47,375 nt of DNA. Origin: Pseudomonadota bacterium. GTDB lineage: Bacteria; Pseudomonadota; Gammaproteobacteria; Steroidobacterales; Woeseiaceae. Below the pieces are notes generated by a model. That model had not been told where the DNA came from and did no database searches. It saw nothing but the letters and a program-made list of their open reading frames with translations. Positions 5,257 through 36,603 of this stretch are shown here, piece by piece; the stretch's first letter is position 1, and each line of letters opens with the position of its first letter. Where the stretch lies: positions 1 through 47,375 of the forward strand of contig JACZWL010000024.1 of assembly GCA_022572185.1 (NCBI GenBank), in the 5' to 3' direction. The translations under genes were made by a program, and so were the position numbers.

Positions 5257-6798
5257 CTAACTCTTGGCCTCGGCTGCTTTTTCGCCGGTGACTATCCGAA
5301 CAAATTCCTCATCGCAAATATATCTGGTGGTGACTAATTCTTCCTGCATGATTTCCACATGCACGTCAAAGCGCCACAGGTGATGCAGATGTCTCATGAC
5401 TTCCTTCGCGTCGTCTTCGGCCAGCGGGATTCGGTCATGCTGCAGGTGACGAAGTGTGATAGAACGGTCGCCGCGCAAATCGACTTCCTGCACTTGGATA
5501 TTCGGCTCCTGTTCGCTAAGGTTGTATTGTTCGGCCAGTTCCTCTCGAATCCGCTGATAGCCGCTATCGTCATGGATTGCGGTAACTTCGATTTTCTCTT
5601 CATTATCGTCATCAAGAATACAGAAGAGCTTTAAATCGCGTATGACTTTGGGTGACAGAAACTGGAGGATGAAGCTCTCATCTTTGTAATTCACCATTGC
5701 GTGATGAACCGTATCCAACCAATCGCTTCCTGCAAAATTTGGGAAGAATTGTTTGTCTTCATCCGTCGGCTGTTCACACAGCCGCCGAATATCCGAAAAA
5801 ATGGCATAGCCCAGCGTGTATGGACTGATGCCGTTGAAGTAGGGTGAATCAAAGGTCGGTTGAAATATTGCGTTCGTATGGGACTGCAGAAATTCGAGCA
5901 TGAATCCGTCGGTCACCAACCCCTCATCATAGAGCGTGTGCAACAAGGTGTAATGCCAGAATGTCGCCCAGCCTTCATTCATGACCTTGGTCTGGCGTTG
6001 TGGATAAAAATACTGCGTGATCTTGCGGACGATTCTTACGACCTCACGCTCCCACGGTTCCAGCAGAGGTGAGTTCTTCTCGATAAAATAGAGTAAGTTC
6101 TCCTGTGGCTCCGGCGGGAATCTTGGCCACTCCTCAACCTTGGCCTCTTCCTTCTTCGGTATCGTGCGCCACAAGTCGTTGACTTGCGCCTGCAGAAATT
6201 CCTCGCGTTCGTGCTGACGACGTTTCTCGTCCTCAGCGGAAATCGGAGCGGGTCGACGAAATCGATCCACCCCATAATTCATCAGCGCGTGGCAGGAATC
6301 CAGCAGGGATTCAGTGGTCTCGACACCGTGTCGTTCTTCACATTCAGCAATATAGTTCTTCGCGAATAACAGATAGTTGACAATTGCACTGGCGTCGGTC
6401 CATGTCTTGAAGAGATAGTTGCCCTTAAAAAATGAGTTATGTCCGAAGCACGCATGTGCAATTACCAGCGCCTGCAACGTTAGTGTGTTTTCCTCCATGA
6501 GGTAGGTAATACAAGGGTTTGAGTTGATCACCAGCTCGTAAGCGAGCCCGATATGACCACGCCGGTATTTTTGCTTGGTGCTCAGGAATTGCTTACCGAA
6601 GGACCAGTGGTGATATCCGACCGGCATACCGGTCGAGGAATAAGCATCCATCATCTGTTCCGCGCTGATGATTTCGATCTGATTCGGGTAGGTGTCGAGT
6701 CCATAGCTTTCCGCAACGCGGGCCAGCTCGGTCTCGTAAGCTTCCAGAACCTCCAGAGTCCACTCTGATCCCTCGGCGATAGGTTTGCGTTTTTTCAT
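5257..6798 (-). CDS. SpoVR/YcgB family protein
   Basis: A 513-residue SpoVR-family protein, named after a Bacillus sporulation gene but widespread in non-sporulating proteobacteria as YcgB. The N-terminus ([41 protein letters not shown]) and the central part ([35 protein letters not shown]) are the conserved blocks. His and Glu residues such as those in [10 protein letters not shown] are invariant in the family, but no biochemical activity is settled. The ATG at 6798 overlaps the stop of the upstream VWA gene (6795-6798), so the two are translationally coupled. Together with prkA and yeaH it forms the conserved stationary-phase and nitrogen-stress triad of Gammaproteobacteria. Confidence 0.92.
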
Positions 6799-8066
6799 GC
6801 AGGTTTTCTTTCAAAAAGATCGTGAAACACCGGAAAAATGTCTGATGGATCTGCCACTTTTCTCATTGCAAAGCTATGCGAATACTCCTCCAGAATCTCT
6901 TCATAGGCATGCCAGAGCGCCTGATCCTCACCTGAGTTGATCTCGACATAGGCAAAATACTGCACTTTGGGCAGGATACTTTCCTCCAGCAAGTCACGGC
7001 ATTGCGGCGAATCGTCCGCCCAGTTCTCTCCGTCCGACGCCTGTGCCGCATAGATATTCCAGTCGCTTGTTGGATACCGTTCGCGAACGATTTGCTCCAT
7101 CAGCTTCAGGGCGCTGGATACGACCGTGCCGCCGGTTTCCCTCGAATAGAAAAAGTCCTCTTCGTCGACTTCGCTCGCAGCCGTGTGATGGCGTATAAAT
7201 ACGATCTCGATTTTGTGATAGTTACGCTTGAGGAACAGGTGCAGAAGGATAAAGAACCGCTTGGCTAAGTCCTTGATGTCCTGTGTCATGGACCCGGACA
7301 CATCCATCAGACAAAACATGACCGCGCTGCTGGTGGGTAAAGGTTGCTGGATGAAGTTGTTGTATTTGAGATCGAAATCGTCGAGAAACGGAATCTGATT
7401 CAGGCGCCGCTCAAGTCGGTCCAGCTCCGTCTTTATTTCGCGAACGCGGTCTTCGGACTCTGCCTGTTCTTCAAGAGTTTCAAGCTCTTCCTGCAGCGCC
7501 GTTATTTGTCGACGAATGGCGCCGCTCAGCGCGATGCGGCGGGCGTGGGCGCCGCGCAGCGACTTCGTTATGTTGAGGCGAGCCGGAATGCCTTCGCTGG
7601 TATACCCGCCCCTGATGAGTTTGTATGCCTCGGTGTCCTTGAGCTGTTTCTTGACGAGATTCGGCAGCTCCAGATCGTCGAACATGAAGTCGAGGAACTC
7701 CTGCTGGGTGAGCTCGAAAATGAACTCATCCATGCCCTCGCCGGTATTGCTGGGTTCTCCTCCGCTGCCGCCACTGCCAGCACCGCCGACAGGCCGTGCG
7801 ATTTTGTCGCCAGTAACAAATTCCTTGTTGCCGGGTAGAGTCTGCCGTTGACGCCCACCTTTACCATGGCGAAACTGTGGCTCTGAGACATCCTGCCTCG
7901 GGATGCTGACTTGGTCCCCTCGATCGGTGTCAGTGATGCTGCGCTTGTTTGCGGCATCAGAAACAGCCTCTTTGATGTGCTTGCGATAGCGACGCAGGAA
8001 GCGCTGCCGATTAACGGCACCCTTGTGCTTTCCGTTCGGTCGACGATCGATGATCAGGAATGCCAC
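6795..8066 (-). CDS. yeaH: YeaH/DUF444 family VWA-domain protein
   Basis: A 423-residue YeaH-type protein. The N-terminal third is basic and charged ([25 protein letters not shown]-like repeats), followed by a Gly/Ser-rich linker near residue 95 and a helical, charged region ([18 protein letters not shown]). A von Willebrand A-like domain begins near residue 250 with the MIDAS motif DVSGS ([11 protein letters not shown]), then [16 protein letters not shown] and GGTVVSS. E. coli YeaH is encoded beside the kinase YeaG, as here. Partner binding within the PrkA/YeaG system is the likely role; the target is unknown. It starts 6 bases after the prkA stop and overlaps spoVR. Confidence 0.92.
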
Positions 8067-8072
8067 GGAACA

Positions 8073-9995
8073 TCACTGCGACTTGCGTACCCGTAGAAAC
8101 CACTCCGACAACAGGCGTACCTGTTTTTCGGTGTAGCCGTGATCCGTCATCCTGCGCACGAAATCACGATGCTTGTTCTTGTCTTCCTCAGACGCTTTCG
8201 GGTTAAAGGAAATCACGGGCAGCAAATCTTCCGTACTGGAGAACATGTTCTTTTCGATCACCAGTCGCAGCTTTTCGTAGCTGTTCCAGGCAGGATTTTC
8301 GCCTTTATTGGCCGCGCGGGCGCGCAGCACGAAATTGACCACCTCGTGGCGAAAGTCTTTCGGATTGCCGATACCGGCCGGTTTCTCGATTTTCTCGAGT
8401 TCGTCGTTCAGTACAGCATGGTCAAGGATATCTCCGGTGTCCGGATTGCGGAAATCCTGATCCTGTATCCAAAGATCCGCATAAGTGATGTAGCGGTCAA
8501 AGATATTCTGGCCATACTCAGAGTAGGATTCCAGATAGGCTGTCTGAATTTCCTTGCCAATAAACTCGATATATCGCGGTGCGATGAACTCCTTTATGAA
8601 GTTCATATAGCGGTCACGTACATCGGTCGGAAACTGTTCCTGCTCAATTTGCTGCTCCAACACATAGAGCAAGTGCACCGGATTGGCCGCGATTTCCGAG
8701 GCGTCAAAATTAAACACTTTCGAGAGGATTTTGAATGAAAATCGGGTCGACAGACCATCCATGCCCTCTTCTACGCCGGCATTGTCCCGGTATTCCTGAA
8801 TAGACTTCGCTTTCGGGTCGATGTCTTTAAGATTCTCACCGTCGTAGATCCGCATCTTGGAGTAGATACTGGAGTTCTCCGGTTCCTTCAGCCGCGTCAG
8901 TATGGCGAACTGCGCCAGCATTCGCAGGGTATCCGGTGCGCAAGGCGCCGCATGCAACGCGCTGTTCCGTAGCAGCTTTTCATAAATCTCGATTTCTTCG
9001 GTGACCTGCAGGGAGTACGGGACCTTGACGATATAGACGCGATCAATGAATGCTTCATTTCTCCTGTTGTTCTTGAATTTCTGCCATTCAGCCTCGTTGG
9101 AGTGAGCCAGAATGATGCCGTCAAACGGTATCGAACCGATAGCCTCTGTACCGTTGTAATTGGTTTCCTGTGATGCTGTTAGTAACGGGTGTAATACCTT
9201 GATCGGTGCCTTGAACATCTCGACGAATTCGAGGATGCCCTGATTGGCTCTGCACAAGCCGCCAGAATAGCTGTACGCATCCGTGTCATTCTGTCGAAAT
9301 TCTTCCAGTTTTCGAATGTCTATTTTTCCAACGAGCGAGGATATGTCCTGATTGTTTTCATCTCCAGGTTCGGTCTTTGACACCGCGATCTGATTGAGTA
9401 TTGATGGATGATGTTTGACGACACGAAACTGGCTAACGTCGCCATTGAATTCCCGGAGACGCTTCGCCGCCCACGGCGACATGATGCTCGTCACGTATCT
9501 TTCTGGAATTCCGTATTCTTCTTTCAGAATTTGGCTATCTTCTAAAGGATTGAAAAGCCCCAAAGGCGTTTCCTGTACGGGGGAACCCTTCAGCGAATAG
9601 AAGGGAATTTTTTCCATCAATTGTTTTAGTCTTTCGGCCAATGAGGATTTGCCGCCGCCGACCGGGCCCAACAAATAGAGAATTTGTTTCTTTTCCTCCA
9701 GACCCTGCGCGGCGTGTCTGAAGAATGACACCATCTGCTCGATGCACTCTTCCATACCGTAGAAGTCGTCAAAAACCGAGTATCGTTTGATAACTTTGTT
9801 GGAAAATATTCTGCTTAGGCGTGCATCTTTCGATGTCTCAATCAATTCGGGCTCACCGATGGCGAGCAAAAGCCGCTGCGCCGCATTAGCGTAGGCAGTC
9901 GGATCTTCTTTGGAGATCTCTAGGTATTCTTTAAGGCTATATTCTTCTTGTTCTGTATCTTCGTAGCGGGTCTGGTAATTGCTGAAGATACTCAT
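8073..9995 (-). CDS. prkA: PrkA/YeaG serine protein kinase (AAA+ fold)
   Basis: A 640-residue PrkA-family protein, close to the 644 residues of E. coli YeaG. The N-terminus MSIFSNYQTRYEDTE is typical. A Walker A motif, GPVGGGKSS, lies at residues 110-118, inside the AAA-like domain. The C-terminal half holds the kinase-like region that gives the family its name (Ser/Thr kinase activity, and ATP-dependent proteolysis in some members). I chose the ATG at 9995 rather than the upstream ATG at 10031 because AGGAGGA (10001-10007 on the plus strand as TCCTCCT) precedes it and the conserved N-terminus begins there. It is first in the prkA-yeaH-spoVR operon. In enterobacteria this operon responds to nitrogen starvation and RpoS; I found no convincing sigma-54 site upstream here. 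Confidence 0.95.
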   Translation of the reverse strand: MSIFSNYQTRYEDTEQEEYSLKEYLEISKEDPTAYANAAQRLLLAIGEPELIETSKDARLSRIFSNKVIKRYSVFDDFYGMEECIEQMVSFFRHAAQGLEEKKQILYLLGPVGGGKSSLAERLKQLMEKIPFYSLKGSPVQETPLGLFNPLEDSQILKEEYGIPERYVTSIMSPWAAKRLREFNGDVSQFRVVKHHPSILNQIAVSKTEPGDENNQDISSLVGKIDIRKLEEFRQNDTDAYSYSGGLCRANQGILEFVEMFKAPIKVLHPLLTASQETNYNGTEAIGSIPFDGIILAHSNEAEWQKFKNNRRNEAFIDRVYIVKVPYSLQVTEEIEIYEKLLRNSALHAAPCAPDTLRMLAQFAILTRLKEPENSSIYSKMRIYDGENLKDIDPKAKSIQEYRDNAGVEEGMDGLSTRFSFKILSKVFNFDASEIAANPVHLLYVLEQQIEQEQFPTDVRDRYMNFIKEFIAPRYIEFIGKEIQTAYLESYSEYGQNIFDRYITYADLWIQDQDFRNPDTGDILDHAVLNDELEKIEKPAGIGNPKDFRHEVVNFVLRARAANKGENPAWNSYEKLRLVIEKNMFSSTEDLLPVISFNPKASEEDKNKHRDFVRRMTDHGYTEKQVRLLSEWFLRVRKSQ

Positions 9996-10031
9996 CTGGG
10001 TCCTCCTGGCATCTGCCGTTAGTTGATTCAA

Positions 10032-10762
10032 TCTACTTTATGTTATCGACCAAAGCTCACTAGTATTTAGTCAAATTCTACCACCACTAATTCACACCCA
10101 TCTGTCAATTCCGGAGGTGCAAGAATTGCAGTATATGACTTTCGCGCGCCACCTTTCTCGCTCATTGGGAAGAAGCATACCTGTAGCCTGCATTACATAA
10201 TGTGATGCAGCTATCAATCAGTGACATGCGGCATTTCGATAGAACATTTCTTGGATGCACTAGATAAATCAATTACTTAGTATGCGTCGAGGCGCTTAAT
10301 ATGGGGGCCAAAGATGTCCGAACCCTGTGTGTTGTGGGTCCCGATAATCCATGTCGTCTAATTCTATTACAGGTTTTGCAATGACTGGGCACCCCGTCCG
10401 GGCGAATTTCTATTACATAAGTGTCGGCAACGAATTACCGCGGAATCCGCACCCGTAACAATGTGTGCTGATTTAGAATCGGGGCAGCATAAGGCAAGCA
10501 TCCGATTGTTGACTGCCGGGATTTTGCCGGGATCAGTCCGGACCCGTTATGACTCTTTAGGAACCTGCGCCCGCGGGCGTCTCCAGCATGCCTATTAAAA
10601 ACAACTGCTTATAAACGCCCAAATGCCTTCGGGAGGCAGGGGCCCACTCAATCGAGGCACCGTGCCAACCGAATGCCTCGGCGCACTGTGAGTACGGTTC
10701 ACACCGACGAGCGCAGCGAGGACAGGCCGAAGGCCCATCCTCTCACCCCGACCAATTTTTCC
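10032..10762. other. long non-coding stretch between prkA and the integrase remnant
   Basis: About 730 bases without a supportable gene on either strand. The part nearest prkA (10032-10300) is AT-richer and presumably contains its promoter; a TTGACA-like hexamer on the minus strand at 10108-10103 has no properly spaced -10 partner. The part nearest the integrase remnant ends with a match to a tRNA 3' end (10737-10754). The rest looks like decayed DNA at the edge of an integration. Confidence 0.5.
10737..10754 (+). repeat. tRNA-Pro 3'-end match, probable integrase attachment half-site
   Basis: These 18 bases (ATCCTCTCACCCCGACCA) equal the end of a typical proteobacterial tRNA-Pro: the T-arm 3' strand, an acceptor strand that would pair with CGGGGTG, discriminator A and CCA. 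The 5' half of a tRNA is absent; upstream sequence only loosely recalls the T-arm. The site lies 9 bases beyond the stop of the tyrosine-recombinase remnant. Integrative elements that target tRNA genes recombine within the 3' end and often carry the integrase next to it, so this is probably a duplicated attachment core. The tRNA identity is from memory of tRNA-Pro sequences. Confidence 0.5.
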
Positions 10763-11127
10763 TTAAACTTCAATCACTTGTTTGTGGTCTACCCGACTAC
10801 TGCCATTTTGTGTGCCTGATCGTGTGAGAATCGTGTGAGCTGCAACCCGTAATACCGTGTTTGCTCGCCGTTCACACACTTTCTCGGCGGCTTCAGTCAG
10901 TCGAGCAATATCCGGTGCCGAGAAATGGTCGTGATTCGCTCGGACTTACGCCCCAATAAATCCTGCCGATCCTCAAAACCCACGCCAGCCGCTCGAAGCC
11001 TGTGCCCAAAAGTATGGCGAAGATCGTGCACCCGAAATCCAGGTAGCTTCGCCCGGTGCCTCGCCTTCCTCCATGCTGAATTGAGCATGTTGAACAGGTA
11101 ATTGCCTTTATAAGTGAAGACGAACTC
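10763..11127 (-). pseudogene. tyrosine recombinase (phage-type integrase) C-terminal remnant
   Basis: Only the C-terminal catalytic part remains: FTYKGNYLFNMLNSAWRKA, then GFRVHDLRHTFGHRLRAAG with the conserved HxxR, and DRQDLLG. Three faults argue that it is dead. The N-terminal half is gone, replaced in frame by a soxB/mgdA start. The usual LLGHK is LLGRK, losing a catalytic-pocket His. Near 10926-10928 one base is missing: after RITT the frame slips, and the true continuation HFSAPDIARLTEAAEK is read one frame over to a TAA at 10763-10765. In that continuation the expected catalytic Tyr (HYS) is Phe (HFS). It lies against a tRNA-Pro 3'-end match, as expected for an integrase next to its attachment site. 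Confidence 0.8.
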
Positions 11128-11268
11128 ATAGTAGGCACAAGCCAGACCGTGCCCGCCACCGCCGATGATGACAACGTCGTATGCCTTGCGCAGCGGCATT
11201 GGCGCAGGAAAATACCTCTCGCCTCGGTACTTCCGCCGTATTCGATACTTCAGTAGTGCGAGCGGCAT
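11128..11268 (-). pseudogene. truncated sarcosine oxidase beta-like / N-methylglutamate dehydrogenase subunit A start
   Basis: The first 47 codons of a FAD-dependent amine oxidase subunit. MPLALLKYRIRRKYRG leads into KAYDVVIIGGGGHGLACAYY, the dinucleotide-binding motif of sarcosine oxidase beta (SoxB) and of MgdA, a subunit of N-methylglutamate dehydrogenase. After ...AYY (about 11128-11130) the sequence changes abruptly, without breaking the frame, to integrase. It follows gmaS by 35 bases; an upstream in-frame ATG at 11310 would overlap the gmaS stop. In methylamine clusters mgdA follows the gmaS/mgs genes, so this is the right gene in the right place, cut off by a deletion or insertion. 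The remaining mgd genes are not in the window. Confidence 0.8.
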
Positions 11269-11303
11269 GTTAGTTACCAGTATCGGTTGGCGCCAGCGCG
11301 CGA

Positions 11304-12611
11304 TCAGCAATCAAGCGTATGCTCACTCTCCCATTGCGAAATATCCCTCGTGAATCGTAGCCATTCTTCGTGCTTCAGCTTGACGTAGCTGTCGATAAAT
11401 TCGTCGCCGAACGCCGTCCTCGCTACCTTGCTCGAGTCCAAAAGACGAATCGCATCCAGCAGATTCGCCGGCAACATGCGCACCTTCCTGAGCTTGTGTC
11501 GCTCCGTGTACATATTCAGATCGACTCGCTTACCGGGATCGCGCTTGTTCGCGACGCCATCCAGGCCCGCGGCAATCACCGCTGCCTGTAATAAGTACGG
11601 ATTGGTCGCGCCGTCCATCAGACGGATCTCGAATCGACCCTGATCCGGAATGCGCACCATGTGGGTGCGATTGTTCCCCGAATAGGTGATAGCGTTCGGC
11701 GACCAGGTTGCCCCGGATGAGGTAACCGCGGCATCGATGCGCTTGTAGCTGTTTACCGTCGGTATAAACATCGCCGCCATTGAGTCAGCGCTGTGTAAAA
11801 CGCCGGCCATGAACTGATAAGCCAGTTTTGACAGGCCCATTTCGTCGCGCTTGTTCAGGAACAGGTTTTTTTTGCCGGTCTTGTCCCACACGGAAACGTG
11901 GGCATGACAACCACTGCCGGTCAAGTGGCCGAATGGCTTCGGCATAAAAGTCGCGCGGTAACCGTGATTCTCGGCTATCGATTTGGTCATGAACTTAAAA
12001 AACGTATGACGATCGGCTGTCGTCAGGCAGTCCGAATAATCCCAGTTCATTTCGAACTGACCGTTGCCGTCCTCATGGTCGTTTTGATAGGGATTCCAGC
12101 CGAGACTTAGCATCGAGTCACAGATTTCACTGATCACCTCATAACGGCGCATCAGGGCTGCCTGGTCGTAACAGGGTTTTTCCTCTTTATCCCTGTCATC
12201 GGAAAGCCCGTCGCCCGACGCATTGATGAGGAAGAACTCGCACTCGACGCCCGTTTTGACTCGATAGCCCTTCTTCGCCGCAGCCGCAATCTGGCGCTTC
12301 AGTGCCACTCTTGGTGACGCCTCCACAGGCTTGCCGTCCATCCAGAGATCGGCGGCAAGCCAGGCGACTTCGGGTTTCCAGGGAAGCTGTATCAGGCTGT
12401 CAGGGTCGGGGATGGCGAACATGTCCGGATGCGCCGGCGTCATGTCCAGCCATGCTGCAAATCCGGCAAAGCCTGCACCGTTTTTTTGCATGCCGCGAAT
12501 CGCGCTGGCCGGCACCAGTTTGGCGCGCAGTTGCCCGAGCAGGTCGACAAAGCTGATGAGAAAATATTTGATGTTCTTGGCCTTAGCGGCGGCCGCCAGA
12601 TCTTTGGCCAT
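11304..12611 (-). CDS. gmaS: gamma-glutamylmethylamide synthetase / type III glutamine synthetase-like
   Basis: A 435-residue glutamine-synthetase-fold ligase. In the N-methylglutamate pathway GmaS joins methylamine to glutamate with ATP. Visible family elements are VDLLGQLRAKLVP, the metal-site segment TGVECEFFL, NDHEDGNGQFEMNW, the ATP/metal segment GSGCHAHVSVWD, the glutamate-binding region around NNRTHMVRIPDQGRFEIRLMDG, and NPYLLQAAVIAAG. The start at 12611 is supported by GGAGAAG upstream. It is fourth in the minus-strand order mgsA-mgsB-mgsC-gmaS, which distinguishes GmaS/GlnT from housekeeping GlnA. A 68-base gap containing a perfect inverted repeat separates it from mgsC. A role as a plain glutamine synthetase (GlnT) cannot be excluded. 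Confidence 0.82.
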   Translation of the reverse strand: MAKDLAAAAKAKNIKYFLISFVDLLGQLRAKLVPASAIRGMQKNGAGFAGFAAWLDMTPAHPDMFAIPDPDSLIQLPWKPEVAWLAADLWMDGKPVEASPRVALKRQIAAAAKKGYRVKTGVECEFFLINASGDGLSDDRDKEEKPCYDQAALMRRYEVISEICDSMLSLGWNPYQNDHEDGNGQFEMNWDYSDCLTTADRHTFFKFMTKSIAENHGYRATFMPKPFGHLTGSGCHAHVSVWDKTGKKNLFLNKRDEMGLSKLAYQFMAGVLHSADSMAAMFIPTVNSYKRIDAAVTSSGATWSPNAITYSGNNRTHMVRIPDQGRFEIRLMDGATNPYLLQAAVIAAGLDGVANKRDPGKRVDLNMYTERHKLRKVRMLPANLLDAIRLLDSSKVARTAFGDEFIDSYVKLKHEEWLRFTRDISQWESEHTLDC

Positions 12612-12644
12612 GGGGCTTCTCCTTATCGATTTGTTGGCGGTACC

Positions 12645-12677
12645 AGTGGTCCAACAAGGTTATATTGATGGACCACT
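12645..12677. promoter_or_regulatory. perfect inverted repeat between mgsC and gmaS
   Basis: AGTGGTCC at 12645-12652 and GGACCACT at 12670-12677 form a perfect 8-base inverted repeat around a 17-base AT-rich centre. It lies just after the mgsC stop and before the gmaS ribosome-binding site. It could be an operator (TGGTCC...GGACCA recalls GntR-type sites) or an RNA hairpin that sets relative expression of gmaS. No T-run follows, so it is not a standard terminator. Confidence 0.45.
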
Positions 12678-12679
12678 AG

Positions 12680-13996
12680 CTACTTGTTGTTGCCCGGGAT
12701 CCAGTTCGTTCCTGCTAACGGGACCTTCGCCATCGCCGCGGCTTCAATAGTCAGGGCAGTCAGGTCTTCCGGCTCCAGATTTAATACATGAGTCTTGCCA
12801 CACGCGCGAGCCAGTGTTTGTAACTCGAGCACCATCGTGGTCAGGTAATTCTTAAGCCAGCGGGCACCTTGCTCCGGCTGTAGTCGCTCCTCCAGCTCCG
12901 CGTCCTGTGTTGTTATACCGACGGGACATCTCCCCGTGTGGCAGTGGTGACAGTAACCGGGTGCCGTTCCCAATGCTTCGTAGTCCTCGACAAATATATT
13001 GCGATTGCACCCCATGGCGACCATTGCGGCACTGCCAATAGACACAGCATCGGCACCCAGTGCAAGTGCCTTGGCAACGTCTGCCCCGCTGCGTATCCCG
13101 CCGGATACGATGAGCTGAACCTTACGATGCATACCGAGTTCCTGCAGCGCTTCGACAGCCATGCGCACGGCCGGCAGCGTTGGAATGCCGACGTGTTCGA
13201 TAAATACGTCCTGCGTCGCAGCCGTGCCACCCTGCATGCCATCGACGACGATGACATCGGCACCGGATTTGACGGCCAGTGCGACATCGTAACTCACTCG
13301 CGTGGCCCCGATCTTGATGTAGATCGGGATCGCCCAGTCAGTGATCTCGCGCAATTCCTGAATCTTGATGGCCAGATCGTCAGGCCCCGTCCAGTCCGGA
13401 TGCCGGCAGGCGCTACGTTGGTCAATGTCCTGTGGCAAGTCACGCATCTCCGCCACACGTTCCGTGATCTTGTGTCCCAGCAGCATGCCGCCGCCGCCGG
13501 GCTTGGCGCCCTGCCCGACAACAACTTCGAGAGCATCCGCCCTCCTGACATCGTCGGGATTTAGCCCGTAGCGGGATGGCAGCACCTGATAGACAAGGAT
13601 CTTTGAGGACTGCCGCTCTTCTTCGGTCATACCCCCATCGCCGGTGGTGGTACTCGTGCCCATCGCAGTCGCCGCCCGGCCGAGCGCCTCCTTGGCGTTC
13701 GCACCCAAGGCGCCGAAACTCATGCCGGCAATCGTGATCGGAATCTTTAACTTGATCGGTCTCCTGGCATACCGGGTACCCAGCACAACGTCGGTAGCGC
13801 ACTTTTCCCGGTAGCCCTCCAGCGGGTAACGCGACATCGACGCGCCCAGAAATACCAGATCATCGAAAGTGGGCAGACTGCGCTTGGCACCGAAGCCACG
13901 GATTTCATAAATGCCCTGGTCCGCGGCACGATGGATCTCATCGAGAACCTGCTGGGAAAATGTGGCCGAAGCACGAAGAGATTTATTGTGGCTCAC
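12680..13996 (-). CDS. mgsC: N-methylglutamate synthase subunit C (glutamate-synthase FMN domain)
   Basis: A 438-residue protein equivalent to the central FMN/Fe-S part of glutamate synthase. IPITIAGMSFGALGANAKEAL and GTSTTTGDGGM are the FMN-barrel start. KPGGGGMLLGHK, IYIKIGATRV, DGMQGGTAATQ and LIVSGGIRSGADVAKALALGADAV are the phosphate- and substrate-binding barrel loops. CHHCHTGRCPVGITTQ carries the cysteines for a 3Fe-4S cluster. In the N-methylglutamate pathway MgsC makes N-methylglutamate with MgsA and MgsB from gamma-glutamylmethylamide and 2-oxoglutarate. Translation begins at GTG 13996, with GAGGAG (14002-14007 as CTCCTC) upstream. Rhizobial GlxD is the same type. Confidence 0.87.
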   Translation of the reverse strand: MSHNKSLRASATFSQQVLDEIHRAADQGIYEIRGFGAKRSLPTFDDLVFLGASMSRYPLEGYREKCATDVVLGTRYARRPIKLKIPITIAGMSFGALGANAKEALGRAATAMGTSTTTGDGGMTEEERQSSKILVYQVLPSRYGLNPDDVRRADALEVVVGQGAKPGGGGMLLGHKITERVAEMRDLPQDIDQRSACRHPDWTGPDDLAIKIQELREITDWAIPIYIKIGATRVSYDVALAVKSGADVIVVDGMQGGTAATQDVFIEHVGIPTLPAVRMAVEALQELGMHRKVQLIVSGGIRSGADVAKALALGADAVSIGSAAMVAMGCNRNIFVEDYEALGTAPGYCHHCHTGRCPVGITTQDAELEERLQPEQGARWLKNYLTTMVLELQTLARACGKTHVLNLEPEDLTALTIEAAAMAKVPLAGTNWIPGNNK

Positions 13997-14041
13997 GATC
14001 GCTCCTCAAGCATGCTACCCGGTACCCGAGACGTTTTCCGC

Positions 14042-14713
14042 TCAATAGTCATCGGCATGATCTATGTTGAAGTTGTATAGCTTGCGCGCCGATCCGTAGC
14101 GCCGAAAGTCATTCACATTCGCAGCAACGCCCGTTGCAGCCAACAACTGTTTCAGACCCTGAACGTGGTCTGCAGTCATTTCTTTTTCGATACAGTCCGC
14201 GCCCAGCTCGCCAACATTGCCGCGTACGTAAATAGTCGCCTCATAAATTGAGTCACCGAGGAAATCACCGGCATCGCCGCAAATAACCAGGCGGCCTTTT
14301 TGCGCCAGGAATGCACTCATGTGACCGACGCTACCGGCAACAACGATGTCGACACCTTTCATCGATATACCGCAGCGTGTGCTGGCGTCACCTTCTATAA
14401 TCAATGCCCCGCCCCGTCCGGACGCGCCGGCGTATTGCGACGCATTGCCCTTTACGCGCACAGACCCGGACATGATGTTCTCGGCAACACCCGGGCCCGC
14501 ATTGCCGGCAATGGTGATCTTTGCCTGCTTGTTCATGCCGGCACAGTAGTAGCCAACATGCCCATCGATCGATACCTCAACAGGCGCATCTATGCCGCAG
14601 GCTATGCAGTGTCGTCCGCCGGGATTCGTCACCGACAGTGTGCCGGATGGTGAATCATGAAGATGCTGATTCAATACACGAACAGAGTCAGTATTCAGAT
14701 CGAACGCCGCCAT
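14042..14713 (-). CDS. mgsB: N-methylglutamate synthase subunit B (GXGXG/GltB C-terminal domain)
   Basis: A 223-residue protein equivalent to the C-terminal beta-helix of glutamate synthase, with regular Gly-rich turns (GHVGYYCAG, GNAGPGVAENIMSG, GNASQYAGASGRGG, GSVGHMSAF, GDAGDFLG, GNVGELGADC). In MgsABC and in GlxC it is a separate polypeptide. I chose the ATG at 14711-14713, whose A is also the last base of the mgsA stop (TGATG), over a longer upstream start, because the family begins around AAFDLNTDSVRVLNQ and such one-base overlaps indicate coupling. A 45-base gap separates it from mgsC. Confidence 0.85.
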   Translation of the reverse strand: MAAFDLNTDSVRVLNQHLHDSPSGTLSVTNPGGRHCIACGIDAPVEVSIDGHVGYYCAGMNKQAKITIAGNAGPGVAENIMSGSVRVKGNASQYAGASGRGGALIIEGDASTRCGISMKGVDIVVAGSVGHMSAFLAQKGRLVICGDAGDFLGDSIYEATIYVRGNVGELGADCIEKEMTADHVQGLKQLLAATGVAANVNDFRRYGSARKLYNFNIDHADDY

Positions 14714-15606
14714 CAGTGGCCCCAGGTATAGACCGTTGCAGGTGCGGGCTCCCAGATCGTGGCGTTCGCGGCACCCGGCAGCTGCGCTATCGCGCGAAAT
14801 TCCGAAGACATTGCGACCCACTCGTCCGTTTCAGCCATAACCGCTGGCTTGCAGGCGATGGGATCACGCAGCACAGCAAAACCATCCTTCGTGCCTATCG
14901 CAAAGGTGTAAAAACCGTCCAGGTCCTTTAAGGCCCGGTTCAGAGCATCTTCCAGCGAGTCCCCCTCGCGCAGACGCCACATAAGATAGCCGGCAGCCAC
15001 TTCGCTGTCGTTGTCAGTTTGGATGTCCACGCCTTCGTCACGCAAAGTCCGGCGCAGCCGGTTATGGTTGGACAGCGAACCGTTGTGTACGAGGCAGAGG
15101 TCCATGCCTGTCGAGAACGGATGCGAGTGTTCGGTGGTTACGGCGCTCTCGGTTGCCATGCGCGTATGTCCGAGCGCGTGTGATCCATTGAGTTCATGTA
15201 GCCGGAACTGCCTGACGAACTCACGCGGCGGTCCCTTTTCCTTGTAAATCTCGATCGCGGAACCGGCGCTCATGATTCGCAGCTCGGGGTGCTGTGTTCT
15301 GAGCCAGTCCTGTACGGACGCCACTTGTGCAGATGCGATGACAACAGCGTGGCTGGCAAGAACGTCGAGTTTGACGTCGGATTTCAGCCGCGACGCCATC
15401 TCTGTCCGCAGCGCATCCCAGTCGTATTCGCCCGCGGCATGCAGAGTCAGCTTGCAACTCGAATCAGGAACGGGGTCGCGATAGAGGGCGATACCGGCAC
15501 TGTCCGGACCGCGGTCGCTCATCTCGACCAGCATGGCCGCGAGGAAACCGCCGAGCTCCGGATACAGGTCCTCATTTTTCAGATAAATGCCGACGATACC
15601 GCACAT
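14713..15606 (-). CDS. mgsA: N-methylglutamate synthase subunit A (class II glutamine amidotransferase)
   Basis: A 297-residue class II amidotransferase domain. The protein begins MCGIVGIY, so Cys2 becomes the N-terminal nucleophile after Met removal. SDRGPDSAGIALY, LGHTRMATESAVTTEHSHPF and LVHNGSLSNHNRLRR are the conserved glutaminase loops, and TDNDSEVAAGYL is the usual later block. In MgsABC it releases methylamine (in glutamate synthase, ammonia) from the gamma-amide for the MgsC site. It is the first gene of the minus-strand operon and diverges from the XRE-cupin regulator 110 bases away. It could be called GlxB in rhizobial naming. Confidence 0.87.
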   Translation of the reverse strand: MCGIVGIYLKNEDLYPELGGFLAAMLVEMSDRGPDSAGIALYRDPVPDSSCKLTLHAAGEYDWDALRTEMASRLKSDVKLDVLASHAVVIASAQVASVQDWLRTQHPELRIMSAGSAIEIYKEKGPPREFVRQFRLHELNGSHALGHTRMATESAVTTEHSHPFSTGMDLCLVHNGSLSNHNRLRRTLRDEGVDIQTDNDSEVAAGYLMWRLREGDSLEDALNRALKDLDGFYTFAIGTKDGFAVLRDPIACKPAVMAETDEWVAMSSEFRAIAQLPGAANATIWEPAPATVYTWGH

Positions 15607-15716: not shown

Positions 15717-16346
15717 ATGAGCAGACCGACACCAGCAAGCAGTATCGAAGATCCTGCCCATGTGCGGACCAGTGAAAATGCTTTGGAAAAGGCCATCGGC
15801 CGCCAGGTGAAGCGTTACCGGAAGCAGCTCGGGCTTACCATCACGGACATCTGCAGCCGGACCGGCTTATCGGCCGGCATGATGTCCAAGATCGAAAATG
15901 GCAATACGTCCCCTTCACTCGCCACACTCCGGTCGCTTTCCACCGCGCTTAACGTTCCCGTTACCGCCCTTTTTCGCGAGTTTGAAGAGCAGAGAGACGC
16001 GACCTTTGTAAAAGCAGGCCAGGGACTGGCGATCGAGCGGCACGGTACGCGAGCAGGGCATCAGTATCAGCTGCTTGGCCACAGTGTCCATAGCGATGTC
16101 TCGGTTGAGCCTTATATGATTACCTTGGAAAAGGCCTCTGAAGTATTCCCGATCTTTCAGCACGCCGGCGTCGAGTTCATTTTTATACTCGAGGGCAGCA
16201 TGGTTTATCGACACCTGAACGCGACCTTTACGCTGACGCCGGGCGACTCGTTGTTCTTCGATTCGGACGCACCGCACGGCCCGGAGGAACTTGTGGATCT
16301 GCCGGTGCGATTTCTTTCCGTGATGTCCCAGTCGAGTGACTCGTAG
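15717..16346 (+). CDS. XRE-family regulator with C-terminal cupin domain
   Basis: A 209-residue regulator. A helix-turn-helix of the XRE type lies at about residues 24-78 (GRQVKRYRKQLGLTITDICSRTGLSAG, then KIENGNTSPSLATL). A cupin domain follows at about 130-200 (HAGVEFIFILEGSMVYRH, LTPGDSLFFDSDAPHGPEEL) and probably senses a small ligand. It is divergent from mgsA; XRE-cupin regulators commonly accompany glx/mgs clusters. It very likely controls mgsABC-gmaS, possibly itself. The 110-base shared intergenic region (15607-15716) should hold both promoters; GTTAAAGTTATTTT lies there, but I cannot define an operator. Confidence 0.82.
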   Translation: MSRPTPASSIEDPAHVRTSENALEKAIGRQVKRYRKQLGLTITDICSRTGLSAGMMSKIENGNTSPSLATLRSLSTALNVPVTALFREFEEQRDATFVKAGQGLAIERHGTRAGHQYQLLGHSVHSDVSVEPYMITLEKASEVFPIFQHAGVEFIFILEGSMVYRHLNATFTLTPGDSLFFDSDAPHGPEELVDLPVRFLSVMSQSSDS

Positions 16347-16417: not shown

Positions 16418-17578
16418 TCAGGTTTCGAATGGCCGCAGCAGGGATCGGGCGATAATGTGCCGCTGAATTTCGGAGGTGCCGTCCCAGATTCGTTCAATTC
16501 TGGCGTCCCGCCATAGTCGCTCGACCGGCAACTCCTCCATCAGGCCCATGCCGCCGAAAATTTGCACTGTGTCATCGGCGGCACGCCCGAGTGCCTCTGA
16601 CGCAAAGAGCTTCGCCATGGCAGCATCGTCAGGGGTCATGCTACCCTGATCGGCTTTTTTGCAAGCATGCATGACCAGCAGGTCCGATGCCTGCAGTTCC
16701 GTCGCCATATTGGCGAGCTTGAACGAGGTACCCTGAAAGTGTCCTATCGGTTTACCGAACTGTTCTCGCGTTGCCGCCCATTCCGTCGCCATTTTCAGCA
16801 ACCGCTCCATTTTTCCGCAGCTCTGTGCGCCAACCCAGACGCGCCCCATACTGAGCCATTTATTCGCTAAATCAAGGCCGTTGCCTTCCTCGCCGAGAAT
16901 CTGATCTTTGCTGACACGACAATTGTCAAAGCTGAGTTGATAGGTGCGGTAAGCCCGTTGACTGACACAAAGTGGGCCGAGACTTATATCGAAGCCTTTC
17001 TCGCCCCGGTCAACAAGAAAGGCGGTGATCCGCTTGCGCGGGCCTCGTGACGTCTCATCGATACCAGTAATAGCGAAAACGATTGCGAAGTCGGGCAGGC
17101 AGGGCGTACTGATGAAATGCTTGTAACCGTCGATGATGTAATCATCGCCATCTTTTACTGCTTTTGTCGTCATAGACATGATGTCGGATCCGGCACCGGG
17201 CTCTGTAAGAGCGAAAGCCTCATGTTTCTCACCGGTGACACAGGGCGTCAGATAATTGTTGATCTGATTTCCCTCACAGGCCAGTAGCAACTCCGTTGGC
17301 CGAGCGATATGGCCGGCCAGGCCGTAGCTCGCTTTGCCGAGTTCGCGCTCGACAAGTCCCATCGTCGTATAGTCCAGTCCGCCACCACCGACCGACTCCG
17401 GCAGATTGGCGGCGTAAAACCCCATCTCGATCGCCTTTGCCTTGATCTGATTACCGAGCTCCTCGGGAACTTCACCAGCGCGGTCTGCCTCTGCCTCGTA
17501 GGGATACACCTGCTCGTCGAGAAACGCCCTCAGCGAATCCAGCAACATGGTTTGCTCGTCGGTGAGCTGATAATTCAT
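16418..17578 (-). CDS. acyl-CoA dehydrogenase, probable gamma-butyrobetainyl-CoA dehydrogenase
   Basis: A 386-residue acyl-CoA dehydrogenase. Family signatures are ALTEPGAGSDIMSMTT (FAD-binding, near residue 125), GYKHFIS, REQFGKPIGHFQG and QIFGGMGLMEE near the C-terminus. The segment that normally reads IYEGTSEIQ is IWDGTSEIQ, with Asp in place of the Glu that serves as catalytic base in many family members. It starts 2 bases after the stop of the NDP-forming CoA ligase, so they form one minus-strand operon. Given the CaiD-like hydratase, carnitine dehydrogenase, BKACE and BCCT genes nearby, I infer that it oxidises gamma-butyrobetainyl-CoA to crotonobetainyl-CoA. The substrate is not shown by the sequence. 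Confidence 0.8.
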   Translation of the reverse strand: MNYQLTDEQTMLLDSLRAFLDEQVYPYEAEADRAGEVPEELGNQIKAKAIEMGFYAANLPESVGGGGLDYTTMGLVERELGKASYGLAGHIARPTELLLACEGNQINNYLTPCVTGEKHEAFALTEPGAGSDIMSMTTKAVKDGDDYIIDGYKHFISTPCLPDFAIVFAITGIDETSRGPRKRITAFLVDRGEKGFDISLGPLCVSQRAYRTYQLSFDNCRVSKDQILGEEGNGLDLANKWLSMGRVWVGAQSCGKMERLLKMATEWAATREQFGKPIGHFQGTSFKLANMATELQASDLLVMHACKKADQGSMTPDDAAMAKLFASEALGRAADDTVQIFGGMGLMEELPVERLWRDARIERIWDGTSEIQRHIIARSLLRPFET

Positions 17579-17580
17579 TA

Positions 17581-19680
17581 CTACTCCTCGAAAGAAAAAC
17601 TGATCAACGCATCAGCTGCAACAACGCCCTGCCCCTCCGGTAACACCAGAAGAGGATTGATATCAAGTTCCATCAAGCGGTCCCAGTTACTTTCGGCAAA
17701 CGCTGCTACCGACAGAACCGCGTCAACGATTGCAGTCATGTCCCCTGCCTTGTTTCCGCGAAATCCTTGTATCAAATTATAGGAAGAAAGCGATTCGACC
17801 GCTTTTGTAACAGCGGCGCGATCGGTGGGGAGCAGCAGACTAGCGCTATCGGCGATAAGTTCAACCAGGATGCCGCCGGCACCGATCACCAAAGCGGGTC
17901 CGTATTGATCATCTCGTTTGATGCCGATGATGAGTTCGGCAATTGCACCCGTTACCATCCGCTCCACCAGAAACCGCTCGGGTGCTCCGTGGCTTTCAGC
18001 AACAGACTCAGAAATGCTTGCGACCGCGGCGACCACATCATCGGCTGACTTCAGATTCAGGACCACCGCAGCCACATCGGATTTGTGCAGGAATTTTTCG
18101 CCGACCGCCTTCACCACGACTGGATACCCTATGCGTTCGGCGATTTCCGGTGCTTCCGCGGCGGCACCGACGTCGCCCTCCGGCACAGTCAGACCAAAAT
18201 CACGAAGTCGGCATTTGCTCTGGAACTCATCGAGAAACCTGACCGGTGCGTCGGGAGCGATTTCACCTGCGGCAAACTTTGGCAGAGTGGCGGCCCCTGC
18301 ACCGCTCGCGAGGAATTCATGGTATTTCGCAGCCGCAGACAGTGCGAACAGCGCATCGTCCAGCCCCTGCAGCGGCACGATGCCCTCGGCAATGAGCCGG
18401 TCGCGAATTTCCTCCGGCAGCAGTTCGCTAATCGTGCAGACAACAAATGCGGGCATGCCGGTCGCCTTGTGTGCGGCAATGAAAGCATCCAGTGTCATCG
18501 CCCATTCATCAACCTCGTCGGAGACAACGGTAGGATGGTCATAAATCAGCACGGCTGCATCGTGCTCACCTTCCATTGCCGTCGTGAAGCAGCGCTCCAT
18601 CGCAACCCGGTCTCCCCAGATCGAGGTGTTGTAATCAAACGGGTTCGACACGGTGACGTAGTTTGGAAATTGTGCCGCCAGGTTCGCCACTTGCGTATCT
18701 AAGAAAGGTTTCATCTCGATATCGATCTCAGCGGCCGCGTCCGCAATGACCGCCGCCTCACCGCCCGAGCAGGAAAGGCTGAAAATATTGCGTCCCGCCA
18801 ATGGCGCGCCAAGTTCGAATATTTTCAGGGTTTCAAGCAACCGGGTTAGCGAATTCACGCGAACAATGCCGAGCCGGTCAAACAAGGCATCGAAGAGCAC
18901 ATCGGAACCGGTCAGAGAACTAGTATGGCTGCCAGACTGACGGGCACTGGCATCGGTCTTGCCCACTTTCATGACGACGATCGGCACGTTTCGTTTCAGA
19001 GCCTGCAGAGCGGCACGGCTGAAGTGCTCAATGTCGTCGACACCCTCGATGTACAGACCAATCGCGACGACGCGATCGTCCTGTAACAGTGTATCGATAT
19101 AATCAGCCTGCCCCAGTACTGCCTGATTGCCGGCTCCTATCACGTGCGTGAAATTGACCGAGCGCTTGTTCATGGTGAGGTTCATTGCGATGTTGCCGCT
19201 TTGCGAAATCAACGCGATACCTCGTTCGACGGGCTTTCCGCCAAACAAATATGGCCAGAGCGCGCACTTTTCCAGATAGTTCACCAACCCGAAGCAATTG
19301 GGCCCCACGAGCGGCATATCACCGGCTGCCTTGACAAGTTTGTCCTGGAGCTTTTGCCCTTCTTCCCCCATCTCTGCAAAACCCGCGGCATAGCAGACAC
19401 AGCCTCCGGCCCCGGCGTCTGAAAGTTTCTGAACAATGTCGATAGTCAGTTCGCGTCTGACTGCTATGAACGCCGCATCCGGTGCCCGTGGTAAATCGTC
19501 AACGGATGGATAGCCTTTGAGTCCGGCGACTTCGCTGCGGCCGGGGTGAACCGGCCAGATCTCGCCATCGTACGCCAGTTCAAGATTCCGCCTGATCGCC
19601 ATTTCCGCGACGGTACCGCCGACAAAAGCGATACTTCGCGGTGAAAAAAGGCGCTCCAGATTGTGTGCGGGTGGGCTCAC
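17581..19680 (-). CDS. NDP-forming acyl-CoA synthetase, probable betainyl/carnitinyl-CoA ligase
   Basis: A 699-residue acetyl-CoA synthetase (ADP-forming) type protein. Its parts are an N-terminal CoA-binding domain (LFSPRSIAFVGGT, GYPSVDDLP, VGPNCFGLVNY), a succinyl-CoA-ligase-like domain (ISQSGNIAMNL, GAGNQA) with the phosphohistidine motif GSHTSSLTG near residue 250, and a C-terminal ATP-grasp domain (GYPVVVKAVGEKFLHKSDV, ELIIGIKRDDQYGPALVIGAGG, LDINPLLVLPEG). Such enzymes activate carboxylic acids to CoA thioesters through a phosphoenzyme. It precedes the acyl-CoA dehydrogenase and is divergent from the CaiD-like gene, so it probably activates gamma-butyrobetaine, crotonobetaine or carnitine. 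The substrate is inferred. Confidence 0.82.
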   Translation of the reverse strand: MSPPAHNLERLFSPRSIAFVGGTVAEMAIRRNLELAYDGEIWPVHPGRSEVAGLKGYPSVDDLPRAPDAAFIAVRRELTIDIVQKLSDAGAGGCVCYAAGFAEMGEEGQKLQDKLVKAAGDMPLVGPNCFGLVNYLEKCALWPYLFGGKPVERGIALISQSGNIAMNLTMNKRSVNFTHVIGAGNQAVLGQADYIDTLLQDDRVVAIGLYIEGVDDIEHFSRAALQALKRNVPIVVMKVGKTDASARQSGSHTSSLTGSDVLFDALFDRLGIVRVNSLTRLLETLKIFELGAPLAGRNIFSLSCSGGEAAVIADAAAEIDIEMKPFLDTQVANLAAQFPNYVTVSNPFDYNTSIWGDRVAMERCFTTAMEGEHDAAVLIYDHPTVVSDEVDEWAMTLDAFIAAHKATGMPAFVVCTISELLPEEIRDRLIAEGIVPLQGLDDALFALSAAAKYHEFLASGAGAATLPKFAAGEIAPDAPVRFLDEFQSKCRLRDFGLTVPEGDVGAAAEAPEIAERIGYPVVVKAVGEKFLHKSDVAAVVLNLKSADDVVAAVASISESVAESHGAPERFLVERMVTGAIAELIIGIKRDDQYGPALVIGAGGILVELIADSASLLLPTDRAAVTKAVESLSSYNLIQGFRGNKAGDMTAIVDAVLSVAAFAESNWDRLMELDINPLLVLPEGQGVVAADALISFSFEE

Positions 19681-19870
19681 GACGAACTTTTCCTGATTGA
19701 TTTCCCGAACGGATTACCGGCTACGAAGCATTGTCATAGTATCCTAAGGTTCTGACCGAGGATTGTCGTTATTTTTCGCCAGGATTCAAAGGTGTTCGAT
19801 ATCGCCGATGTTGCCTGTATATTTGGGCACAGGCTCTGCAGCCGCATCAATACTTTACGAGGAAGGCATT

Positions 19871-20671
19871 ATGCACGAACCAGTGAAAGTCACCCGTGAA
19901 GGCCGGGTGCTTATCGTAGTCCTGGACAGGCCCAAGGTGAACGCAATTGACCTCGAGACCAGTCGGAAGCTTGGTGCAGCTTTCGTCATGTTGCGTGACG
20001 ATCCCGATTTGTCCGTCGGCATCATTACCGGCGCCGGCGAGAAAATTTTTTCCGCCGGATGGGATCTCAAGGCGGTGAGTAGCGGCGAGATGCAGACAGA
20101 AAACTGGTGGGAAGATGACTATGGCCCCGGAGGATTTGCAGGTCTGACCGAACTCTGGGATCTGAACAAACCCGTGATAGCGGCGCTGAACGGTATCGTC
20201 ATTGGCGGTGGATTCGAACTGGCGCTTGCCTGCGACCTGATGATCGCCGCCGAGCATGTCACGTTTTCCTTGCCGGAGTTGCCTCTGGGCATGGTGCCCG
20301 ATGCCGGCGCAATCCAGCGTCTGCACCGGCGCCTGCCCTATAACAAGGCAATGGAGATGTATTTGCTCGGTCAGCGCATGTCGGCGCAGGATGCCGCAGC
20401 CTATGGCTTGGTTAACAAAGTCGTGCCAAAGGATCAGCTGATGGAAACAGCCATGGCATGGGCGAATCAGCTGTCGGAGGTCGCACCGCTTGCGCTGCAA
20501 TCCGTCAAGGAACTGCTCCGCGCCATCGAGCGCGACACAATTCAGGACGCTTTCGAGACGATGCGTACCGCGGACCTACCGAATTACCGACAGATGCTGA
20601 AGTCCGAGGATGCGCACGAAGGTGTCAGTGCATTCGTCGAAAAGCGCGACGCGAAATTCAAGGGCAGCTGA
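19871..20671 (+). CDS. CaiD-like crotonobetainyl-CoA hydratase (carnitinyl-CoA dehydratase)
   Basis: A 266-residue crotonase. Compared from memory with E. coli CaiD, long stretches agree: LDRPKVNAID, IITGAGEKIFSAGWDLKA, YGPGGFAGLTE, KPVIAALNG, GGGFELALACD, LPELPLGMVPD and EKRD near the end. The two glutamates of active crotonases are present at Glu116 (GGGFE) and Glu136 (LPE). The likely reaction is hydration of crotonobetainyl-CoA to L-carnitinyl-CoA, or the reverse. I chose ATG 19871 because GAGGAAGG at 19859-19866 precedes it; the longer upstream frame lacks family similarity. It is followed after one base by the carnitine-dehydrogenase-like gene. Confidence 0.85.
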   Translation: MHEPVKVTREGRVLIVVLDRPKVNAIDLETSRKLGAAFVMLRDDPDLSVGIITGAGEKIFSAGWDLKAVSSGEMQTENWWEDDYGPGGFAGLTELWDLNKPVIAALNGIVIGGGFELALACDLMIAAEHVTFSLPELPLGMVPDAGAIQRLHRRLPYNKAMEMYLLGQRMSAQDAAAYGLVNKVVPKDQLMETAMAWANQLSEVAPLALQSVKELLRAIERDTIQDAFETMRTADLPNYRQMLKSEDAHEGVSAFVEKRDAKFKGS

Positions 20672-20672
20672 C

Positions 20673-21635
20673 ATGGCACAGGCGTTTCAAGGCATCGATC
20701 CGAACGCAATCGCTCGCGTTTGCTCTATTGGGGCAGGGCCAATCGGCGCCGGGTGGACGGCTTTCTTGCTCGCCAGGGGCTATTCCGTCACAGCTTACAT
20801 ACATGAGCCCGGCGAGGAGCCATCACTGCGCGCCCTGATCGACACTGCCTGGGCCAGCCTGGAATCACTCGGACTGGCGCAAGGCGCTTCGCGCGATAAT
20901 CTCCGCTGCACGAGCGACCTGGCCGAGGCCGTTAGCGACGCAGAGTTCGTGCAGGAAAGTGCGCCCGAGGACATACAACTGAAACAGGCCTTATATGAAA
21001 AGCTCGGGCGCCTGGTTCCCGGCAATGTCGTCATCGCGTCGAGCACATCAGGGTTGCCAATGAGCGATATTCAGGCCAGATGCTCAACGCCGGAGCGAAC
21101 GGTCGTCGGCCACCCGTTCAACCCGCCGTATTTGCTTCCCCTCGTCGAGATTATCGGTGGCGCCGATACAGATCCGGCGGCCATTCAGTGGCTCTTCGAT
21201 TTTTATAAGGTCACCGGCAAAGCGCCGCTCATACTCAAGAAGGAGATTCCCGGCTTTATCGCCACCCGCCTGCAGGAAGCCGTATGGCGGGAAGCCCTGC
21301 ATATGATTGTTAACGACGAAGCCACGGTTGAGGACATCGACTTCGCTATCGTAAACGGTCCGGGACCCCGCTGGGCGATGATGGGGCCATGCCTGATCTA
21401 TCATATCGGCGGCGGCGAAGGTGGCATGGCTTACTGTCTGGATCAGTTCGGGCCGGCACTGAAGCTGCCATGGTCACGTCTCGAGGCACCCGAATTGACG
21501 CCGAAGCTCCGCGAGCAACTTATCGAAGGCAGCCGCCGCGAGGCCGGAGACCGTGACTACGCAATGCTCAACAGTGAACGTGATCGCGGCCTGGTCGCCA
21601 TTCAGAACGCGCTGAAAGCAAGCACCGGGAAATAA
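20673..21635 (+). CDS. L-carnitine dehydrogenase-like 3-hydroxyacyl dehydrogenase
   Basis: A 320-residue NAD-dependent dehydrogenase of the 3-hydroxyacyl-CoA dehydrogenase fold. The Rossmann motif GAGPIGAG is at residues 20-27. SSTSGLP and GHPFNPPYLLPLVEIIGG (with catalytic-type His147) follow, then KEIPGFIATRLQEAVWREALH and GPGPRWAMMGP. The ALKLPWSRLEAPELT stretch is characteristic of L-carnitine dehydrogenase rather than fatty-acid enzymes. It would oxidise L-carnitine to 3-dehydrocarnitine with NAD. The ATG at 20673 lies one base after the caiD-like stop, giving a tight two-gene unit. Many relatives have a fused or adjacent thioesterase; none is visible here, so release of carnitine from carnitinyl-CoA is unassigned. 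Confidence 0.85.
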   Translation: MAQAFQGIDPNAIARVCSIGAGPIGAGWTAFLLARGYSVTAYIHEPGEEPSLRALIDTAWASLESLGLAQGASRDNLRCTSDLAEAVSDAEFVQESAPEDIQLKQALYEKLGRLVPGNVVIASSTSGLPMSDIQARCSTPERTVVGHPFNPPYLLPLVEIIGGADTDPAAIQWLFDFYKVTGKAPLILKKEIPGFIATRLQEAVWREALHMIVNDEATVEDIDFAIVNGPGPRWAMMGPCLIYHIGGGEGGMAYCLDQFGPALKLPWSRLEAPELTPKLREQLIEGSRREAGDRDYAMLNSERDRGLVAIQNALKASTGK

Positions 21636-21677
21636 ATCGGACCACGACAGAAACCGAATTCACGGCTTCAGCGCCCG

Positions 21678-21700
21678 ATGTGATTGAAAAAAAATCACAT
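21678..21700. promoter_or_regulatory. perfect inverted repeat upstream of the LysR gene
   Basis: ATGTGATT at 21678-21685 and AATCACAT at 21693-21700 form a perfect 8-base dyad with a 7-base A-rich centre, 18 bases before the likely LysR start at 21719. It contains the T-N11-A pattern usual for LysR operators, so autoregulation is the simplest reading. The half-sites recall CRP (TGTGA/TCACA), but the 11-base spacing between them is wrong for CRP. Confidence 0.5.
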
Positions 21701-21718
21701 ACGCGTAACACTGTCGTC

Positions 21719-24149: not shown

Positions 24150-24169
24150 GATGCAAACAATCCAGGTAG

Positions 24170-32998: not shown

Positions 32999-33191
32999 CG
33001 TCGTTCCTATTTCTGCGGCTCCATCGCCGCGGTGGTCCTCCACTATCTGCAGCTGGTATTGAGTTAGTCAAATCGAGCACGCATACTGCTTGCCTTGCTC
33101 GCCAAGGGCAAATGCTTCGTCGCAGCCTTGCCTCGATGCGCATCAGCGGCACACAACGATACGAGATCAATCAGAAGAGGAGAATACCGGG

Positions 33192-34199: not shown

Positions 34200-34220
34200 C
34201 AACCGCATCAAGACTCGAAC

Positions 34221-34982: not shown

Positions 34983-35000
34983 CGTGAACAGGCAAGCAAC

Positions 35001-36595: not shown

Positions 36596-36603
36596 GGCCA
36601 TCC

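Follow-up and report, generated by a model that had tools for sequence, protein, structure and literature searches.

A truncated N-methylglutamate operon and a second gmaS locus that likely completes the pathway in a Woeseiaceae assembly

The N-methylglutamate (NMG) pathway of the bacterium studied here is likely divided between two loci. The first, in the window (the whole 47,375-nucleotide stretch that was analysed), would be an operon truncated by a deletion, and the second, on another contig of the same assembly (C59), would supply NMG oxidation. The pathway is probably whole in this genome and the scar an ordinary one. As a single contig can make a pathway look broken while the missing part sits elsewhere, annotation of the NMG pathway should seek mgd genes genome-wide, not beside gmaS only. 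The locus also represents a further case of an operon that has seemingly moved between lineages.

The window locus and its junction with an integrase relic

MgsABC and GmaS are enzymes that turn methylamine and glutamate into NMG. In the window, the genes for the three MgsABC subunits lie in order ahead of gmaS on the reverse strand, and all four are open and belong to the expected families. The glutamine amidotransferase-like subunit is encoded by mgsA (14713-15606), which is 87-90% identical to its counterparts in loci L023, L024, and L027. The GXGXG-motif subunit gene mgsB (about 14042-14713) was recognised by a domain match, and its start was set from homologs, the listed ORF beginning further upstream. 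The glutamate-synthase-like FMN subunit gene mgsC (12680-13996) matched Pfam Glu_synthase (2.2e-92) and is 91-94% identical to those of the same three loci. The product of gmaS (11304-12611), gamma-glutamylmethylamide synthetase, scored 664.8 bits with TIGR03105 against a curated type III cut-off of 469.6 bits, and its best solved relative was 7cql (600 bits). Judged by alignment spacing, its residues W303, D178, E187, and R315 are the equivalents of Trp300, Asp177, Glu186, and Arg312 named for the solved GmaS in the available text of PMC7948447. In the alignment, W303 replaces the flap Glu of glutamine synthetase, and the catalytic Asp, Glu, and Arg are present. Pairwise dN/dS values, which, being long-term averages, give no date for the deletion and no proof that the genes function today, were 0.035-0.111 for mgsA, mgsB, mgsC, and gmaS against L023, L024, and L027, and for gmaS also against C59; the four genes look conserved. 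A divergent HTH-cupin regulator gene (15717-16346, forward strand; Pfam HTH_3 and Cupin_2) precedes mgsA, and the same gene adjoins mgsA in L023, L024, L027, L030, L033, and others.

Beyond the regulator, positions 16418-25051 hold genes for acyl-CoA dehydrogenase, CoA ligase, enoyl-CoA hydratase, hydroxyacyl-CoA dehydrogenase, and a LysR regulator, together with genes named by eye as a BCCT-type transporter and an enzyme of keto-acid cleavage; the group resembles a cluster for carnitine-type breakdown. In G030, too, mgsA is immediately preceded by the first two of these genes. Furthermore, a set of hydratase, SDR, hydrolase, flavin-dependent, and CoA-transferase genes at 31733-38995, 16-27 kb from mgsA, was found by eye in much the same form beside gmaS in L027 (9319-14868).

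The four-subunit MgdABCD set is incomplete in the window, where just the first 47 codons of mgdA (soxB-like), counted from the ATG, are left (11128-11268, reverse strand; TIGR01373 match and homology to mgdA of C59). A single ORF (10897-11310) fuses this remnant to an integrase tail and matches both NCBIfam TIGR01373 (soxB; profile positions 5-48 of 407, E 4.4e-08) and Pfam Phage_integrase (E 5.4e-07), the mgdA frame entering the C-terminal part of the integrase and reaching a stop at 10897. The earlier note had described mgsABC and gmaS as intact and in order and mgdA as stopping after 47 codons in frame with an integrase remnant, and it was right in these points, in the gene names, and in the scar. 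Similarity to the intact C59 copy begins at 11128 and reaches the end of that contig (88.3% DNA identity over 1058 bp), and 10737-11128 is 87% identical over 393 bp of DNA to a full-length integrase locus of G086. The homology limits of mgdA and of the relatives' full-length 381-aa integrases thus meet at 11127/11128, with about one shared base. Because these limits are sharp on both sides, the assembled sequence truly contains this join, which is no chance motif, and it is most simply explained by a deletion that fused mgdA with an island integrase. A structured RNA in the scar was not supported, as no Rfam match at E<=1 was found in 10000-11200 and the folding z-score was -1.65, with 15 of 200 shuffles equally stable.

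The integrase tail (10763-11127, reverse strand; Pfam Phage_integrase) corresponds to about residues 261-381 of 381, numbered by eye. It contains one frameshift near 10925, and no complete open integrase gene was found there. A Phe occupies the place where relatives carry the Tyr of the HYS motif, which is presumably the catalytic Tyr. A 67-aa fragment of the tail was matched at E<=1e-15 in 23 of 107 genomes of the family, the window's own assembly (G000) included, and was 93%, 91%, and 85% identical to the 381-aa integrases of L149, L150, and L151. Those integrases are full length and two of the three lie beside an intact tRNA-Pro, whereas the window retains a frameshifted tail. Of the four loci examined, L150 and L151 have tRNA-Pro(CGG) directly beside the integrase, L152 has tRNA-Arg there, and at L149 no tRNA was found.

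Next to the tail lies a dispersed repeat (10501-10777, unstranded), in which repeat and tRNA comparison showed fragments matching the 3' end of tRNA-Pro, one at 10624-10644 and another from 10737 onward; no whole tRNA was found in this stretch. On its right side the repeat looks like the 3' end of a tRNA-Pro interrupted by an insert, and partial copies occur between genes on C32, C51, C56, and C70 of the same assembly (L115-L118). The repeat could be what remains of an attachment site, or else a small element that the integrase mobilised. By eye, almost the same transposase-like ORF occurs at 45064-45759, towards the window's right end, and at L117 879-1580 on C51.

An assembly chimera at 11127/11128 is very unlikely. 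The join is known from the assembled sequence, and its exact 30-base junction was absent from viral_contigs, a weak point as that collection is not expected to hold such sequence; however, the integrase tail has undergone decay of its own (the frameshift) and adjoins an attachment-site-like repeat, as an old relic would, although a false join could also show these features. Under a deletion, the window would once have carried a complete mgsABC-gmaS-mgdABCD operon in the neighbourhood of a genomic-island integrase that occupied a tRNA-Pro-type attachment site. Judged by the meeting homology limits, the deletion, sharing about one base, would have fused mgdA at codon 47 with the integrase at about codon 261, and the same event would have eliminated mgdBCD, the remainder of mgdA, and two thirds of the integrase gene. 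MgsABC and gmaS would have stayed intact and, from what is known of these families, may still turn methylamine and glutamate into NMG.

A second gmaS locus on contig C59

The assembly comprises 3142915 bases in 99 contigs and is reported to be 96.08% complete and 0.46% contaminated. A soxB family search of it gave 10 matches, among which only that on C59 was strong and full length (482.8 bits; the next scored 76.5 bits). On C59, the contig end truncates a second gmaS (residues 143-435, 91% identity), and behind this gene come soxB, soxD, soxA, and soxG, which make up all four MgdABCD subunits; the C59 soxB shares 88-90% identity with the soxB genes located immediately after gmaS in G012 and G057. 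The four sox proteins score below their NCBIfam cut-offs (483/529.45 bits for soxB; 66.1/116.5, 847.5/1164, and 34.1/143.95 bits for the other three). Their membership of the sox superfamily is plain, and their exact substrate, NMG or sarcosine, is assigned from context: the set is named NMG dehydrogenase because gmaS adjoins it and because relatives keep contiguous operons. The mgsABC genes of the C59 locus, where gmaS meets the contig end, were not found in the assembly, in which the search for a further mgsC gave just two hits, one at 32% (139 bits) and one at 49% over 95 residues (33 bits). From the mgsC and soxB searches, therefore, MgsABC was found in the window alone within this assembly, and a sox set of this type on C59 alone.

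The earlier note had suggested that the second half of the pathway might lie elsewhere in the genome and had proposed a search for mgdABCD or soxBDAG. If C59 is indeed part of this genome, the set found there bears out that suggestion; it is the finding that the note had named as removing the metabolic puzzle, which it mostly dissolves. The other proposal, that the cell makes NMG which it cannot oxidise, gained no support in this analysis.

It is unlikely that C59 is misbinned DNA of a related bacterium, which would leave the genome with the truncated operon only. Such a reading would fit the two gmaS copies, which are as far apart as copies from other genera (87.1-90.4% DNA identity among four sequences over 876 columns), and the base composition of C59 does not discriminate. 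However, the reported contamination is low, as given above, and both metA and 14.2 kb of C59 are single copy in the assembly. A repeat of ~71 bp common to C13, C59, and C70 also speaks against misbinning, weakly, as G011 and G060 hold similar stretches with weaker matches. Composition was rejected as a means of placing C59, as it fits relatives as well as this genome; the leftmost 4.7 kb (L015) correlated with the window at 0.61-0.75 and the rest of C59 at 0.95-0.96. Two further origins were not favoured: a strain duplicate, as the 14.2 kb and metA have no second copy, and a recent duplication of gmaS within the genome, as the two copies are as divergent from each other as from those of other genera. 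With C59 taken as part of this genome, its gmaS-soxBDAG locus, read directly from the contig, would supply NMG oxidation in the same cell.

Operon arrangement and spread among relatives

Among the 60 genomes searched, five, G000 included, had a GmaS match at E<=1e-100. In L024 and L033, the regulator, mgsABC, gmaS, soxB, soxD, soxA, and soxG stand all together, and L023 and L030 keep the same order up to a contig end inside soxA (soxD was looked at in L023 alone). The regulator and sox genes of L023, L024, and L030 are 80-94% identical. In G030, which like G008 belongs to the same family as G000, a gene named by eye as a transporter comes after mgsABC-gmaS, and the closest soxB (71%) is on a separate contig. 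The closest soxB of G061 (61%) likewise lies off the gmaS contig. A wider survey took the best 80 of 573 candidate gmaS loci, with L029, L031, and L032 taken as the same as L024, L025, and L026. No mgsC of >=60% identity was found within 600 bp upstream of gmaS in 35 of these best 80 loci. In the other 45, soxB was directly downstream in 9, sox genes were elsewhere in the locus in 5, 2 were too short, and 29 had mgsC beside gmaS and no sox gene within the available locus DNA.

These 29 loci could be read as a sign that mgsABC-gmaS has a role outside methylamine oxidation, such as the nitrogen storage or osmolyte function raised in the earlier note. Among the nine genomes searched for SoxB at E<=1e-30, moreover, eight had a match, those of G060 being just 46-48% identical, and G062 had none. 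Such a purpose is nevertheless extremely unlikely for the window genes, and no support for it was found: a full sox set stands behind the second gmaS of this assembly, split operons have been published (available text of PMC4543880), and G060 and G062 are genomes without stated completeness. It is likewise very unlikely that part of the group (this genome if C59 is misbinned, possibly also G060 and G062) would carry mgsABC-gmaS without a matching dehydrogenase and make NMG for another use, with mgd lost recurrently as the operon moves between lineages. We favour the reading with two loci and oxidation from C59, against which speak the possible misbinning of C59, the sub-cut-off scores of its sox proteins, the lack of an mgsABC match for its locus, and the longer end branch of the window gmaS.

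The gmaS sequences of the window, C59, G012, and G057 form an unresolved group (support 97/100), in which the end branch of the window copy measures 0.064 versus 0.034 for that of C59. The window gmaS is 88-90% identical in DNA to those of G012, of another genus, and G057, of another family, whereas the rpoB DNA of G000 is 77-78% identical to that of G012 (two pieces) and 73% to that of G057. The gmaS and rpoB identities fit lateral transfer, and the operon seems to have moved between lineages. As far as the available text of PMC5023228 goes, inheritance of gmaS is mostly vertical, with some transfer at higher ranks. The marker first considered for vertical descent, prkA, which stands in a row with the SpoVR and DUF444 genes at 5257-10031, was unusable, as it matched G000 only among seven genomes at E<=1e-50, and rpoB was taken instead. 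A literature search on Woeseia and N-methylglutamate turned up no paper, which does not show that nothing is in print.

The SoxD (delta subunit) proteins beside C59-type SoxB (L119-L134; L146, L163-L167) are without two cysteines found in SoxD of sarcosine oxidase structures, which we take to bind zinc. All seven SoxB matches of >=58% identity stand beside SoxD without the two cysteines, and the nine of <=50% comprise eight beside SoxD with them and one for which no SoxD was found. As a mark of NMG dehydrogenase the cysteines were rejected as not diagnostic, since they are kept in Rhizobium, Sphingobium, and Methylobacterium replicons with mgs-gmaS and absent in Paracoccus aminophilus.

Comparison with known systems

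The GmaS of Rhodovulum sp. 12E13 (PDB 7cql; available text of PMC7948447) matches that of the window over its whole length with the key residues present; it comes from another class of bacteria, and the window GmaS is known from sequence. For operon layout, the chromid pAMI6 of Paracoccus aminophilus JCM 7686 is described in the available text of PMC4543880 as bearing mgsABC-gmaS and mgdABCD in two putative operons, and the record agrees. It resembles the present case in having mgsABC-gmaS as one unit and mgdABCD as another, but neither of its units is broken and about 7 kb separates them, its soxB shares 46% identity with the C59 soxB, and that text describes no deletion scar. On plasmid pLVM1 of Methylobacterium sp. 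DM1, mgsABC-gmaS likewise has no adjoining sox genes, and soxBDAG lies about 60 kb off on the same plasmid; unlike in the window, no remnant of mgdA is annotated after gmaS in the stretch examined. The sox genes of Rhizobium bangladeshense p2 and Sphingobium xenophagum pSH1 are on the other side of mgs. Given these arrangements in P. aminophilus, DM1, Rhizobium, and Sphingobium, a divided pathway is ordinary, and what is particular to the window locus is its visible deletion scar.
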